From contig NZ_KQ948147.1 in assembly GCF_001513955.1 (NCBI RefSeq), positions 646,757-710,756 on the forward strand: DNA of 64,000 bases, read 5' to 3'. The position numbers and the translations under genes were made by a program. Shown piece by piece: positions 6,487-39,970 of this stretch. The notes beneath the pieces are model-generated. The model saw only the letters and a program-made list of their open reading frames with translations, was not told the DNA's origin and searched no databases. Numbering within the stretch: position 1 is the stretch's first letter; each line of letters opens with the position of its first letter. Source of the stretch: Streptomyces pseudovenezuelae. GTDB lineage: Bacteria; Actinomycetota; Actinomycetes; Streptomycetales; Streptomycetaceae.

Positions 6487-6556
6487 TTCACCGCCCGTCG
6501 TGGACGGGGGCAGGGTGGTTCGCACGTAACAGCGGACGGTGAAGGTGGGACCGGTC

Positions 6557-6997
6557 ATGTATCGCGACGACGGTTTCCGTGAGCTGGACCGGCAGGAGTG
6601 CCTGCGCCTGATGGCGAGGGCCCCTGTGGGCCGGATCGTGCACACGCGTCATGCTCTGCCCGCCGTCCTGCCGGTCAACTTCTGCCTGGACCACGGCGGA
6701 GCGGTCCTGCTGCGGACCGCGGCGGCCTCGGAACTGGTCCGCGCGGTGGACGGCGTGGTCGTCGCCTTCGAGACCGACGAGGTCGACACGGTCACCCGGT
6801 CCGGCTGGAGCGTCATCGTCACCGGCCGGGCCGACGTGGTGACCGACCCGGCCGAGCACGCGCGCCTGTGCCGGGTCGGGCCACGCTCCTGGGCGCCGTC
6901 GCCGGCGGAGGTCTTCGTGCGGATCGAGCCCGAGCTGATCACAGGCCGGGAACTCATCGCCGGACACACCCTGCACGGCACACGGCTGCCGTTCTGA
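6557..6997 (+). CDS. Pyridoxamine 5'-phosphate oxidase (PPOX) fold protein
   Basis: 146-aa single-domain split-barrel protein (MYRDDGFRELDRQECLRLM, then GRIVHTRHALPAVLPVNF). This is the layout of the flavin/F420-binding PPOX-like family, whose members include hypoxia-induced proteins of mycobacteria and Streptomyces. ATG 6557 is taken because GAAGGTGGGA precedes it by about seven bases; the in-frame GTG at 6539 has no RBS. No essential residue can be assigned by eye. The DevR-like box 70 bp upstream and the neighbouring stress genes suggest a role in oxygen limitation or nitrosative stress (inference). Confidence 0.85.
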   Translation: MYRDDGFRELDRQECLRLMARAPVGRIVHTRHALPAVLPVNFCLDHGGAVLLRTAAASELVRAVDGVVVAFETDEVDTVTRSGWSVIVTGRADVVTDPAEHARLCRVGPRSWAPSPAEVFVRIEPELITGRELIAGHTLHGTRLPF

Positions 6998-7413
6998 ACG
7001 GGGGCGGCCTCGGACTCCGTGTGTCGGGCTTGAACGGCGGGGTGGGGGTCCGTCCGGTGTCCCCCGCCCTCGCGCGCATTGCGGAGGGCTCGGCGGCGGA
7101 TGGCACATGGTGGTTCTTCTGAGCGCGGGTGGTCGTGGCGGTGGCGTGCCGGGCTGGAACCGGGCCGCGCGTCGCAGGGGCGCACGGCATGGGCGCGGGG
7201 CCGTCCGGTCTTTGCCGGGGGCGCCGGCTGGTCCCGCGTCGTCGGGAGCGCGGTGGGGCGGGCTGTTGCGGGGGAGACGAGCACATGGGAGAGGGGACGG
7301 GGCCGGGCCGGGTCATGGCTGCACCGCGCGTGGTCGGCGGGGTGGAGGTGGCTCACGGTCGCCGTACGAGGGCGGCCAAGGAGGCCGCCGCGCGTCGGGG
7401 TGCCGGCCGGTCC

Positions 7414-7868
7414 GTCCTGTGCGCAGTGACCGGCTGTCACGGTCCTGGGCGGCTGGGTGGAGCGGTGGTCGGGTCGGTGGGGCTGTGGCTGGGGGTGCAC
7501 GCCAACGGTCTGGCTCGGTCGTGCGCGGCGAGCTGTGGACGTGGCGGTGCACTCCCTGGTGGACTGTCCTGTACGCCGTGACTGGCTGTCACAGCCCCGG
7601 GTGGCTCGGCGGAGTGGTGGTCTGGTCGATCAGGCTGCGACTGGGGGAGCGCACCCGCGGTCTGTCCCGGTCGTGCGCGGGGACCAGTGGACGTGGGGGC
7701 GCACCCCTGCGTGTCCGTCCTGTTCGCCGTGACCGGCTGTCACGGCCCCGGGCGCAGTGGTGGCCGGGGCGGTGGGGCTGTGGCTGGGGGAGCGCACCCG
7801 CGGTCTGGCTCGGTTGTGCGCGGGGACCAGTGGACGTGGCGGCGCACCGCCTGTTGGGCTCCTTGGCG
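7414..7868. repeat. Three-copy tandem repeat, unit about 151 bp
   Basis: Copies start at 7414, 7566 and 7717, each with GTCCTGT followed by a C/G-rich dyad, then a second conserved block (GGGGGAGCGCACCCGCGGTC in copies 2 and 3, GTGCGCGG..., GTGGACGTGG). Periods are 152 and 151 bp; copies 2 and 3 are the most alike. A decayed fourth copy seems to begin near 7860 (CGCTGTCACC), and traces of an older copy (GGTGGGGC...GGGGGAG) occur near 7250-7285. The unit is not a multiple of three, which argues against coding. Confidence 0.75.
7726..7746. promoter_or_regulatory. Inverted repeat inside the tandem array (best copy)
   Basis: GCCGTGAC-CGGCT-GTCACGGC is a perfect 8-bp stem with a 5-base loop. The equivalent positions in copy 1 (7426-7440) and copy 2 (7578-7592) retain GTGAC-N5-GTCAC. 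Conservation of the arms in all three repeats suggests either a protein-binding dyad or an RNA hairpin. Confidence 0.4.
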
Positions 7869-7960
7869 TCGGTACCCGCTGTCACCGGCACGGGGCCGAG
7901 CCGCCGCGGCGATCCCGCCGCCCCGTGGTCGTAGGTGAGGGGCACCCGGCCCCGGGGGGT

Positions 7961-7974
7961 GGCCCGAACGGCCC
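7961..7974. promoter_or_regulatory. Imperfect DevR-like box upstream of xfp
   Basis: GGCCCGAACGGCCC matches nine of ten defined positions of the DevR box pattern, about 90 bp before the phosphoketolase start. It is weaker than the sites at 6473 and 14353 and could be a chance match in GC-rich DNA. Confidence 0.25.
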
Positions 7975-8062
7975 TGTCGGGTGCCCGGTCGGCGGGCGGA
8001 AGGTGGTGGGGCGCGGAAGAGTGCACATTCGCCCCCAGACCCGCCGAGGAAAGGGACACCCG

Positions 8063-10447
8063 ATGTCCGTCGACACGCAGCAGGCGCCCGCCGAGCTCAC
8101 GGACCACGAGCTGAAAGCCCTGGACGCCCACTGGCGCGCCGCGAACTACCTGTCCGTCGGCCAGATCTACCTCCTGGCGAACCCCCTGCTGAAGGAACCC
8201 CTGCGCCCGGAGCACGTCAAGCCGCGGCTGCTCGGGCACTGGGGCACCTCCCCGGGCCTGAACCTCGTGCACACCCACCTCAACCGCGTCATCAGGTCCC
8301 GCGGCCGGGACGCCCTGTGCGTCTGGGGGCCCGGACACGGCGGACCGGCCGTCCTCGCCAACTCCTGGCTTGAGGGCACCTATTCGCAGACGTATCCCGA
8401 CGTCAGCCGGGACGAGGCCGGCATGGAACGGCTGTTCCGGCAGTTCTCGTTCCCCGGCGGCGTGCCCAGCCACGTGGCGCCGGAGACACCCGGGTCGATC
8501 CACGAGGGCGGCGAGCTGGGCTACTCGCTGTCGCACGCCTACGGAGCCGCCTTCGACAACCCGGACCTGCTGGTCGCCTGCGTGATCGGGGACGGCGAGG
8601 CGGAGACCGGCCCGCTGGCCGCCTCCTGGCACTCCAGCAAGTTCCTCGACCCCGTCCACGACGGCGCCGTCCTGCCGATCCTCCACCTCAACGGCTACAA
8701 GATCGCCAACCCGACCGTGCTCGCCCGGCTCCCCGAGTCCGAACTCGACGCACTCCTGCGCGGCTACGGCCACGCGCCGATCCATGTCACCGGCGACGAC
8801 CCCATGGCCGTGCACCGGGCCATGGCCGCGGCCATGGACGACGCGCTGGAGCGCATCGACGCGATCCAGCGCAGCGCCCGCGAGGACGGCGTCTGCGAAC
8901 GGGCCCACTGGCCGGTGATCGTGCTGCGCACCCCGAAGGGCTGGACGGGCCCCGCCGAGGTCGACGGCCTCCCGGTCGAAGGCACCTGGCGTGCCCACCA
9001 GGTCCCGCTGGCCGCCGTCCGGGACAACCCCGAGCACCTGCGGCAGCTGGAGGCGTGGCTGCACTCCTACCGCCCGCGGGAACTGTTCGACGAGCAGGGA
9101 CACCCGAGCGCCCAGGTACTGGCCTGCGTGCCCGACGGCGCGCGCCGGCTCGGCGCGACCCCGCACGCCAACGGCGGTCTGCTGACGCGCGAACTCCCGC
9201 TGCCGGACCTGGAGTCGTACGCCGTCGAGGTCGACAAGCCGGGCGCGACGATCCACGAACCCAGCCGTGTTCTGGGCGACATGCTGGAGTACGTCATGCG
9301 CCGCACCGGTGAGCGCCGCGACTTCAGGATCGTGGGCCCGGACGAGACCGCATCCAACCGGCTCCAGGCCGTCTACGGGGCGAGCGGCAAGGCCTGGCAG
9401 GCGCAGACACTCCCGGTGGACGAACACCTCGAGCGGCACGGCCGGGTGATGGAGATCCTCTCCGAACACACGTGCCAGGGCTGGCTGGAGGGGTATCTGC
9501 TGACCGGACGGCACGGGCTGTTCTCGTGCTACGAGGCGTTCGTGCACATCGTCGACTCGATGGTCAACCAGCACATCAAATGGCTGCGCACCACCCGCCG
9601 GCTGGGCTGGCGCGCGCCCATCCCCTCTCTCAACTACCTGCTCACCTCGCACGTCTGGCGCCAGGACCACAACGGCTTCTCCCACCAGGACCCCGGCTTC
9701 GTCGACCACATCCTCAACAAGAGCCCCGAGGCCGTACGGGTCTACCTGCCGCCGGACACCAACACCCTGCTGTCCGTCGCCGACCACGTGCTGCGCAGCC
9801 GGGACTACGTCAACGTCGTGGTCGCCGGCAAGCAGCCCTGCTTCGACTGGCTGTCCATGGATCAGGCTCATGCGCACTGTGCGCGCGGCGCCGGGATCTG
9901 GGACTGGGCCGGGACCGAGGACGGCGGCCGGGAACCCGACGTCGTCCTCGGCTGCGCGGGTGACGTGCCCACCCAGGAGGTGCTGGCCGCCGCCCAGTTG
10001 CTGCGCCGGCACCTGCCGGACCTGACCGTCCGGGTGGTCAACGTCGTCGACCTGGCCAGGCTGCTGCCGCAGGAGGAGCACCCGCACGGCATGCCGGACG
10101 CGGAGTACGACGCGCTGTTCACCCGCGACAAGCCGGTGATCTTCGCGTACCACGGCTACCCGTGGCTGATCCACCGCCTGGCCTACCGCCGTGCCGGGCA
10201 TCCGCACCTGCACGTGCGCGGCTACAAGGAGATCGGCACGACCACGACCCCGTTCGACATGGTCGTCCGCAACGACCTCGACCGGTACCGGCTGGTCATG
10301 GACGTCATCGACCGCGTGCCCGGTCTGGCGGTGCGGGCCGCCGCCGTACGACAGCGGATGGAGGACACCCGTCTGCGGCACCACGACTGGATCCGCGCCC
10401 ACGGCACCGATCTGCCCGAGGTCGCGGACTGGACGTGGGACGGCTGA
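8063..10447 (+). CDS. xfp: Xylulose-5-phosphate/fructose-6-phosphate phosphoketolase
   Basis: 794 aa, the usual length of the family. Thiamine-diphosphate enzyme that splits xylulose-5-P (and often fructose-6-P) with phosphate to acetyl-P plus glyceraldehyde-3-P (or erythrose-4-P). Signature stretches include [42 protein letters not shown], the ThDP/Mg motif [11 protein letters not shown]...LNGYKI and the C-terminal [11 protein letters not shown] 8063 is chosen because GAGGAAAGGG sits six bases ahead; the long upstream extension runs through repeat DNA and is not coding. The neighbouring oxygen- and NO-response genes suggest use as a bypass under low oxygen (inference). Confidence 0.96.
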
Positions 10448-14385: not shown

Positions 14386-14420
14386 GGGCCGACCGGGCCG
14401 CGATCAGGGCCGTTCGGCCC
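14386..14420. promoter_or_regulatory. Two further DevR-like palindromes
   Basis: GGGCCGACCGGGCC (14386-14399, nine of ten positions) and GGGCCGTTCGGCCC (14407-14420, all ten) follow the best box at spacings of 33 and 21 bp, close to whole helical turns. Clustered boxes are usual at DosR-dependent promoters. Confidence 0.4.
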
Positions 14421-14673
14421 ACGGCCCACGGTGGACGGGCGGACGGGTAGACGGACAGGCGGATGGACGGGCAGGCCGTGCGGCGCCGAGGTCCGGCCGT
14501 GAGTGATCTCGGCACCACCGCTTTCCGTGACCGGTACCGGTACCGGCCTGCCCTCGTGTACCGCGCCGAGCGACGGCGGTCTCCCCGACCGGGGCCGACC
14601 GGCCCATGCGCTCCGGGCGGGAGTGGCGGATCCTGAAGACAGGCGTAGTTCCGCAGCTTCACCGGAGGCCGCC

Positions 14674-37227: not shown

Positions 37228-38064
37228 ATGAGCGTCATCAGCGTCGGTCAGGCCGTCGTCCTCGGAGCCGTCGAGGGAGTGACCGAGTTCCTCCCCGTCT
37301 CCTCCACCGGCCATCTGAAGATCGTCGAGGGGTTGATGCACATCCCCGTCGACGACGACGCCGTCGTCGGGTTCTCGGCCGTCATCCAGGTCGGCGCGAT
37401 CGCGGCCGTGCTCGTGTACTTCTTCAAGGACATCGTGCGGATCGTCTCCGCGTGGGGCAGGGGCCTGGTCAACAAGGAGGAGCGCTACCACCACGACTAC
37501 AAGTTCGCCTGGTGGGTGATCGCCGCGACCGTCCCGATCGTCGTCGTGGGCCTGGCCGCCAAGCCGCTCATCGAGGGGCCGCTCGCCTCCCTGTGGGTGG
37601 TCGCGGGCTCCCTGATCGTCGGCAGCGGTGTGATGTGGGCGGCGGATCAGATGGGCCGGCACAAGCGCGGCGAGGACGACACCTCGTTCAAGGACGCGAT
37701 GCTGGTCGGCAGCTCGCAGATCCTCGCGCTGCTCTTCCCGGGCTTCTCCCGCTCCGGCGCGACCATGTCCACGGCCCTGATCCTGGACCTCGACCGCGTG
37801 GCCGCTACCCGCCTCTCCTTCTTCCTCGGCATCCCCGCCCTCACCGGCGCCGGAATCTACGAGCTCAAGGACGCCCTGGGCGCGGGCGTGGGCGCGGCCC
37901 CGCTCGCCGTCGGCACCGCCGTCTCGTTCGTCGTCGCCTACGCCTCCATCGCCTGGCTGCTCAAGTTCGTGGCCAAGCACTCCTTCAACGCCTTCGTCAT
38001 CTACCGACTGGTGGTGGGCCTGCTGCTCTTCGGCCTCCTGACCACGGGCACGCTCGACAGCTGA
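37228..38064 (+). CDS. uppP: Undecaprenyl-diphosphatase (bacitracin resistance)
   Basis: 278 aa integral membrane protein with the two BacA/UppP signatures, EGVTEFLPVSSTGHL near the N-terminus and FPGFSRSGATMSTALILDLDR in the middle. It dephosphorylates undecaprenyl-PP, recycling the lipid carrier for peptidoglycan and teichoic acids. ATG 37228 has only a weak GAGAAG RBS. It is separated from crcB by 93 bp and probably has its own promoter. The second 3' hairpin (38082-38101) may end its transcript. Confidence 0.95.
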   Translation: MSVISVGQAVVLGAVEGVTEFLPVSSTGHLKIVEGLMHIPVDDDAVVGFSAVIQVGAIAAVLVYFFKDIVRIVSAWGRGLVNKEERYHHDYKFAWWVIAATVPIVVVGLAAKPLIEGPLASLWVVAGSLIVGSGVMWAADQMGRHKRGEDDTSFKDAMLVGSSQILALLFPGFSRSGATMSTALILDLDRVAATRLSFFLGIPALTGAGIYELKDALGAGVGAAPLAVGTAVSFVVAYASIAWLLKFVAKHSFNAFVIYRLVVGLLLFGLLTTGTLDS

Positions 38065-38101: not shown

Positions 38102-38510
38102 TGTCGGCACGCACGAGGGTGAGGGAATGCCCGAGCCGTAGAAGTGCGGCGCACCTGACCAGCACGGAGTGCGGGCCCTGTCGCCGGAGCGCGAGTCGGT
38201 CCAGCGCCACGGGGTCACGCCACGAGGATGCGGCCCGCGCCGCGGGGTAGCCCGCGCCTCAGCTGTGTGGTGCACCGGAACCGAACGGGGTGTCAGGCCC
38301 CGTCGCAGGGGCGGGTGCAACTGGCCGGCACGAGAGGTGTGCGGGGGCGGCCGCGTCGGAGAGGTGCGGGGTGGCCGGCCAACCCCAAGGTTCCGGCGCC
38401 CCGCTCTGGCGCGGGGGCCAGGTGCGGCCGGTGCCGCAGAGGGTGGGGTAGCCGACCATCCGGGATGCGGCCCCCACCGCAGCGGCCAGGCTGCCTGCGC
38501 CAAAGAGGGT

Positions 38511-39056
38511 GCTCCGCAGGGTCGCAAGGCAGCTCACGGTCACGGGCGTGTGGGGCGGCCCGTGCCGGCGAAGTGCGGGGTAGCTGACCAGCCCGGGGTT
38601 CCAGCCGCCTGTCGGCGGTCGGCATCGCAGGGGCCAGGCGGCCTGCGCCACGCAGGCGCGCTCCGCAGGGCCGCAGGGCAGCTCACGGTCACAGGTGTGC
38701 GGGGCGGCCCATGCCGGTGACGTGCGGCGTAGCTGATCAGTCCGGGGTTCCAGCCGTTTCTCACCGCGGTGGGCACCGCACGGGCTGCGAGGCGGCCCGC
38801 CGGCGCGGGGCCCGGGGGGCCTGCGCCACGGTGACGCGCTCCGCAGGGTCCCAAGACAGCTCACCTTCACGGGCGTGCGGGGGCGGCCCGCACCGCAGGG
38901 CCTGCGCGTGGTCTGTCGGCGCCGGGGGCCAGGGGGGCGGCCTCCGCCTCGAAGGCGCGCTCCGCAGGGGCCGCGAGGCAGCTCACCGGCACCGCTGTGT
39001 GGGGGTGGCCCCGCCGCAGAGGAGCCAGGCCACCGACCAGCCCGGGTTCCAGCCCC
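38511..39056. repeat. Degenerate tandem repeats, core module about 95 bp
   Basis: Each copy opens with GCTCCGCAGG (38511, 38660, 38838, 38959), followed by AGGCAGCTCAC..., GTGTGCGGGGCGGCCC and, in three copies, GA(C/T)CAG(C/T)CCGGGGTTCCAGCC (38586, 38735, 39035). Spacings of 149, 178 and 121 bp show that the separators vary; the third copy lacks its end. Older traces extend back to about 38310. A perfect GCCTGCG-CCA-CGCAGGC hairpin lies at 38641-38657. Confidence 0.65.
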
Positions 39057-39238: not shown

Positions 39239-39970
39239 GTGAACCTGTCAGACAGCCGGACAGCCAGTCAGCCGCCGAGGCGTGTCAGCGCCATGGAGGC
39301 GGTGCTGGCGCATCTGCGCGACGCCATCGAGCGGGGGGAGTACGCCATCGGCGACAAGCTCCCGTCCGAGGCGGAGCTCTGCCGCACCCTGGAGATCAGC
39401 CGGCCCGTCCTGCGCGAGGCCCTCAGGGCCCTGCAGACCATGGGGCTGACCGTCTCCAAGACCGGCAAGGGCACCTTCGTCGTGGCCAACGCGGTGGAGG
39501 ACCCCACCTTCGGCGACTACGCGGCCAGCGACCTCCTGGAGGTGCGCCGCCACGTCGAGATCCCGGTCGCCGGGTACGCGGCCCGGCGCCGCACCCACGA
39601 GAACCTCGACCACCTGGCCCACCTCCTGGACCGGATGGAACGGGAGACCGACACCACCGCGTGGGTCGCGATGGACACCCTCTTCCACCTCGCGGTGGCC
39701 GAGGCCGCCCAGAACCCGGTCTTCCGCCGGGTCATCGAGGAGATCCGCGACGCACTGGCGCGTCAGTCGGCCTTCCTCAACGAGCTGGGCGGCCGCCGGG
39801 AGCAGTCCAACCGCGAGCACCGCGCGATCGTCGAGGCGCTGATCGACGGTTCCGAGCACGACGCGGTGGAGGCGATGTCCCACCATCTCGACCGCGTCGA
39901 GACCACCCTCACCGACATCGTGCGTTCCCCGCGCACGGACAGTTCCACGGAAGGCGGATCAGAGGCGTGA
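39239..39970 (+). CDS. FCD-domain GntR-family regulator (FadR subfamily)
   Basis: 243 aa. The N-terminal GntR winged helix reads [48 protein letters not shown] and KTGKGTFVV; the FCD ligand domain spans about 90-230, with metal-ligand histidines such as [12 protein letters not shown] and [14 protein letters not shown] 39239 is used because a promoter ends seven bases before it. An 11-bp palindrome CTGTCAGACAG lies inside the first codons and could be its operator. The end overlaps the permease start (GTGA), so the regulator is co-expressed with the asparagine genes, which it probably controls. Confidence 0.9.
39245..39255. promoter_or_regulatory. Candidate GntR operator inside the 5' coding region
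   Basis: CTGTC-A-GACAG is a perfect 11-bp palindrome at codons 3-6 of the regulator gene. With a leaderless start it would lie at about +7 to +17, a repressing position. FCD/GntR proteins prefer TNGTNNNACNA-like dyads, to which this is close. Confidence 0.4.

Follow-up and report, generated by a model that had tools for sequence, protein, structure and literature searches.

The gap upstream of phosphoketolase and its tandem array

The window, by which we mean the whole 64,000-nt stretch of Streptomyces pseudovenezuelae DNA that was analysed, carries a 152-aa Pyridox_ox_2 (PNPOx-like) gene (6539–6997, + strand; Pfam PF12900, E 3.6e-28), our upstream synteny anchor. Its downstream neighbor across a gap of 1,065 bp (6998–8062) is a 794-aa phosphoketolase (XFP) gene (8063–10447, + strand; Pfam XFP_N, XFP and XFP_C). 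The original prediction described this gap as about 1 kb long and G/T-rich, which is borne out by its length, its GC skew of +0.20, and the excess of T over A on the + strand at 7000–7999. Skews of 11 orthologous gaps (defined below) were only −0.09 to +0.05, so this bias towards G and T is specific to the window lineage. Relaxed constraint would be the sole explanation we offer for it. The + strand excess of both G and T, again unlike the 11 orthologous gaps, is strong over 7000–7900.

Tandem Repeats Finder (TRF) placed a tandem array at 7412–7853, with period 152, 3.0 copies, 80% matches and a score of 552, the top score among window arrays scoring at least 100. We drew its copies at 7412–7562, 7563–7713 and 7714–7868 (all + strand), a spacing of 151–152; copy 3 has an 8-nt deletion relative to the other two. 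Pairwise identities were 77.5% for copies 1 and 2, 84.7% for 1 and 3, and 83.9% for 2 and 3. Both measures confirm the three-copy repeat of about 151 bp that had been predicted at this place. Also as predicted, the dyad GTGAC-N5-GTCAC is present in all three copies, with complete 8-bp arms in copy 3 only.

We considered that the array might be a dispersed repeat and rejected this, having found no second copy in the same genome among the 40 of 328 first-look candidates scored. Nor does the non-coding DNA at 6998–7314 (unstranded) have a second genomic copy, and in relatives it gave only short weak matches.

Homology of the gap to a USP gene

The DNA just ahead of the array, which we term the lead (7315–7411, + strand), resembles the start of a universal stress protein (USP) gene. 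The resemblance begins at the ATG and extends to about codon 32; it is interrupted by two frameshifts (+2 and −1) and by the deletion of 10 nt. Positions 7315–7404 aligned with codons 1–32 of one USP reference (L036), from its ATG, at 72 of 101 columns, for a score of 86. With six references, no dinucleotide shuffle and no real-DNA control (300 of each) scored as high, and the real-DNA result was still 0/300 when references L040 and L048 were withheld. With the same six USP references, local alignment scores of copies 1, 2 and 3 were 80, 84 and 75, again reached by 0/300 shuffles and 0/300 real window stretches. With all 11 references, lead and copies alike were again at 0/300 real-DNA controls. 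Without L040 and L048, the copy scores fell to 61, 66 and 60, equaled by 8, 3 and 13 of 300 real-DNA stretches. The lead is thus firm, while the evidence for the copies comes mostly from the USP of L040 (genome G281); as tests of homology, moreover, the three copies are not independent of each other. Plain blastn matched copies 2 and 1 to the L040 USP at 72% identity over ~90 bp (E 1e-6 and 1e-5).

An nhmmer profile built from 11 USP genes gave 101.3 bits at 7315–7687 and 30.3 bits at 7715–7988, against a reverse-strand best of 11.7. These runs omitted the null2 composition correction and the scores are inflated, intact USP genes reaching 78 bits on the reverse strand, which is why the local alignments with controls were added. 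The path of the 101.3-bit match takes copy 1 through codons ~34–85 and copy 2 through ~86–126, so it runs linearly through DNA that is repeated. By local alignment the copies fall within codons 86–138 for all five references shown: copy 1 on ~86–138 (its first 30 nt also match codons 35–45), copy 2 on ~86–132 and copy 3 on ~86–137. One of 15 alignments instead maps the second part of a unit to codons 190–217. Given these differing placements, our USP codon ranges are approximate.

A possible 3' remnant at 7856–7940 (+ strand; codons ~238–272), overlapping the drawn end of copy 3, is weak: its score of 55 was equaled by 1/300 shuffles and 2/300 real-DNA controls, and the references disagree on its place. 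Comparing the lead and copies to intact USP genes, we noted C>G as the commonest change; C>T and A>G rank among those that follow.

On these alignments, the lead demonstrably descends from the 5' part of a Usp (PF00582) gene, and the homology of each array copy to USP DNA is supported, though less strongly. The gap is no longer a USP gene, since its frames are broken and a Pfam scan of its six ORFs gave no Usp match. A protein-coding repeat was rejected as well: the only Pfam matches of the six ORFs were two weak ones (E 0.08 and 0.68) to unrelated families. The prediction that the repeat is not protein-coding therefore stands for its present state, but not for its ancestor, which probably did code.

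A USP wreck in the gap could also coexist with three units of separate origin, a repeat that arose or landed there and resembles USP DNA only through GC-rich, codon-like composition. The 3–13 of 300 real stretches that match the copy scores once the two best references are withheld would fit this, as would the presence in the same window of another non-coding array, with period 149. We nonetheless consider it improbable, in view of the 0/300 real stretches that reach any copy with all references, the blastn placement of units in the L040 USP, twice on the same codons, and the agreement of nearly all references in putting the copies on the same codons.

Relatives, a paralogous locus, and the origin of the array

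We surveyed the same gap in other Streptomyces by searching genome contigs with the Pyridox_ox_2 protein. At least 593 stretches matched the pattern, at least 132 of them encoding a relative, and the best 80 were kept; including previously retrieved loci, 117 loci were examined in total. Among the best 80, the phosphoketolase start lay no more than ~1.3 kb downstream of Pyridox_ox_2 in 10, and phosphoketolase was upstream in five; the stretches retrieved for the other 65 showed no start of that gene. Those 10, together with the gap of G228 (L043), form the set of 11 orthologous gaps. L041, L042 and L039 gave the same figures as L070, L069 and L072, respectively, and each pair was counted once.

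An intact USP gene occupies five of the 11 gaps: those of S. griseorubiginosus (L070), S. sp. S.PB5 (L079), S. aurantiogriseus (L098), S. ipomoeae (L104) and G228. All five have open frames, and their Pfam Usp matches have E-values of 6e-32 or lower. Two gaps, of S. sp. NRRL B-24085 (L069) and S. canus 299MFChir4.1 (L072), hold USP wrecks of other shapes. The remaining four (L080, L092, L099 and L124) have no recognisable USP, the most being a weak 17.7-bit profile match in L080. Gap lengths are 1,025–1,228 bp with an intact USP (n = 5) and 143–277 bp with none recognisable (n = 4); the 1,065 bp of the window gap match the former group. In G013 (L152), outside the 11-gap set, a USP gene also precedes phosphoketolase.

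Compared with a working locus of the order Pyridox_ox_2, USP, phosphoketolase, the window has the USP remnant at the same place, between the same neighbors and on the same strand, with the ATG and codons 1–32 still recognisable, but its frames are broken, large blocks are gone, and codons ~86–138 are present in three copies. The NRRL B-24085 and S. canus wrecks show the same gene decaying at the same place, the former keeping profile positions 1–110, 253–450 and 566–825, the latter 68–165 and 682–826. Both differ from the window in their breakpoints and in having no long-period tandem array. We examined whether the window shares the NRRL B-24085 deletion (the profile jump from 110 to 253), but the window junction is ambiguous, so we claim no shared deletion event.

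Among the sequences searched, the array itself was seen only in the window. In the 11 other gaps TRF reported only short-period arrays (at most 22 nt) and none of ~151 bp, and the array was not found in 391 other genomes of the genus (E 1e-8, two candidates scored per genome). A search of 100 genomes gave matches in 44 at E 1e-3 or better; those outside the array's own genome were 24–106 bp long, none better than E 1e-6. A match in L037 (79% over 65 bp) lies in what looks like a GC-rich gene for a transporter, and we discounted it as chance. None of the relatives examined has an array-bearing intermediate.

Of the relatives found, S. canus 299MFChir4.1 is the closest by Pyridox_ox_2, at 90.1% identity over that gene; it is also 95.6% identical to the window at the phosphoketolase start and 90.8% identical across the final 127 bp of the gap. 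Yet its gap gave no match to the array by blastn at E 1e-4, and this absence despite similar flanks argues against long-term selection on the array. It would be compatible with a role gained in the window lineage alone. The triplicated USP piece could, for example, have been retained there as a spacer or structured leader tuning the phosphoketolase promoter, a reading that we regard as very unlikely.

A paralogous locus was found in the window's own genome, on contig C8. Here Pyridox_ox_2 (86% DNA identity to the window copy) is followed by an intact USP gene of 276 aa (two Usp stretches by Pfam, E 7.6e-40) and then by the phosphoketolase upstream region and the first 27 nt of that gene. The own-genome search matched window 7305–7370 to the USP start. 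The phosphoketolase upstream region and first 27 nt are kept at 100% identity (L034 5345–5530); beyond those 27 nt the sequence reads as an apparent P-type ATPase fragment. Two stress-operon copies in one genome have thus decayed in complementary ways, the window having lost USP and C8 having lost phosphoketolase. A second locus in G274, which we take to be S. canus 299MFChir4.1 from the identical figures of L039 and L072, has an intact USP (L036; 87% to the C8 USP) adjoined by a decayed Pyridox_ox_2 (L036 1818–2032), a half-dead copy of the same operon. There is no phosphoketolase in the retrieved stretch, which ends ~0.8 kb after USP.

We interpret the array as, very probably, part of a decayed USP gene in which one piece was internally triplicated. 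The homology of its first part to USP DNA, the synteny, the broken frames and the other forms of decay in relatives are established. The ancestral order would have been Pyridox_ox_2, a USP gene of ~275 codons with two Usp stretches, and phosphoketolase. We infer that the USP gene then lost its frame and large blocks, codons ~33–85 and 138–237 on our preferred mapping, and that slippage or unequal exchange turned a block of ~151 bp around codons 86–138 into three tandem copies. The copies would afterward have diverged to ~80% identity, to the point that nothing recognisable is now encoded. Such decay was likely tolerated because an intact paralogous USP was kept at the C8 locus. Common descent from a single piece, rather than selection, would explain why the copies are alike.

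Three natures for the repeat had been put forward in the original prediction: a structured RNA, an array of protein sites, or a replication-slippage relic. The last comes nearest, since the array is a tandem duplication within a dead gene; slippage itself is one presumed route. No title among the literature matches listed concerned this pseudogene.

The dyad, the phosphoketolase upstream region, and other arrays

The hairpin common to the three copies, predicted to be conserved, looks like chance. Dyads of 5 bp with 3–8 nt loops occur in 81% of 367 other 151-bp tiles of the window. Only 4% of tiles have 8-bp arms like those of copy 3, which neither copy 1 nor copy 2 shares. Permuting the columns of the three-copy alignment 5000 times produced a 15-column block with 14 or more invariant columns in 3244 cases. 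On these tile and permutation frequencies the dyad core is no more conserved than chance would make it.

The dyad was also absent from the homologous place in all 11 intact USP genes; one of these, the L048 USP, has a GTGAC/GTCAC pair with a 3–8 nt spacer elsewhere in the gene (nt 199). It is located in the first 30 nt of each array unit, whose origin is ambiguous, either codons 35–45 (ungapped) or codons 86–97 (gapped alignment). The ungapped match to codons 35–45 is 22, 21 and 23 of 30 nt for the three units, with the S. canus remnant among the best references. Alone, these 30 nt are not significant, with 8, 48 and 2 of 400 random stretches scoring equally high. If the array descends from a dying USP gene, it illustrates that a conserved-looking hairpin repeat can come from such a gene.

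A lineage-specific structured RNA of three hairpin-bearing units, to which the 5-bp core in 3/3 copies and the 8-bp arms of copy 3 might point, is highly improbable. Fold z-scores against shuffles were ordinary, at −0.25, −0.64 and −0.10 on the + strand and −1.29, +0.54 and −0.47 on the − strand. Among the aligned units (three sequences, giving low power) no pair had changed on both sides, the third arm pair is broken in 2/3 copies, no Rfam match was found, and the 11 orthologous gaps are without the array. This option of the original prediction was therefore dropped.

Binding sites for a regulator of phosphoketolase, with the dyad as operator, would account for dyads regularly spaced upstream of that gene but are scarcely credible: 1.2 Mb of the genome shows no enrichment of the GTGAC dyad (six occurrences, three inside the array), relatives are without the array, and the conserved upstream element lies outside it. 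The three occurrences outside the array compare with an average of 2.1 in 1.2 Mb for arms of the same composition, GTGAC included, 5 of 60 such arms reaching six, and the predicted array of protein sites loses its footing accordingly.

That conserved element is a putative OsdR/DevR-like box, TGGCCCGAACGGCCCT, at 7960–7975 (unstranded). Alignment of 19 phosphoketolase upstream regions revealed, in the last 125 bp before the gene, a conserved block around TGGCCCG-NN-CGGCCCTGTC, from which at least three of the 19 regions deviate (G016, G041 and one of two in G013). By hand count the box agrees at 13 of 16 positions with the published 16-nt OsdR consensus, AGGGCCGATCGGCCCT, as given in PMC5069765. 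Its 15-nt core has one exact occurrence in the window and 33 with two mismatches, versus 24 expected, so that single look-alikes prove nothing. Look-alikes are common in the GC-rich window, box-like sequences at 14406–14421 and 14591–14606 among them. As in the OsdR/DevR dormancy regulon described in PMC5069765, the window has an OsdR-like box with a GAF-domain histidine kinase and a Usp gene nearby; it differs in that phosphoketolase is absent from the main text of that paper, and the predicted box is not part of the array. Should some non-coding stretch of the gap have a function, this box would be the best candidate.

The period-149 array lies at 38475–38800 (TRF score 430), with further diverged copies to ~39000, between a UppP-like gene (37228–38064) and a FadR-like regulator (39239–39970), both named from their translations. 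By blastn it is not homologous to the array at 7412–7853, and a search of 391 further genomes of the genus, with two candidates scored in each, found none matching it at E 1e-12. Outside the window, on contig C4 of the same genome (G000 C4:760405–760828), we noted a tandem duplication of period 217 with 98% matches, likewise not a multiple of 3. Across 1.2 Mb, TRF arrays scoring at least 150 with periods of at least 80 that are not multiples of 3 occurred only at this C4 place and as the two window arrays.
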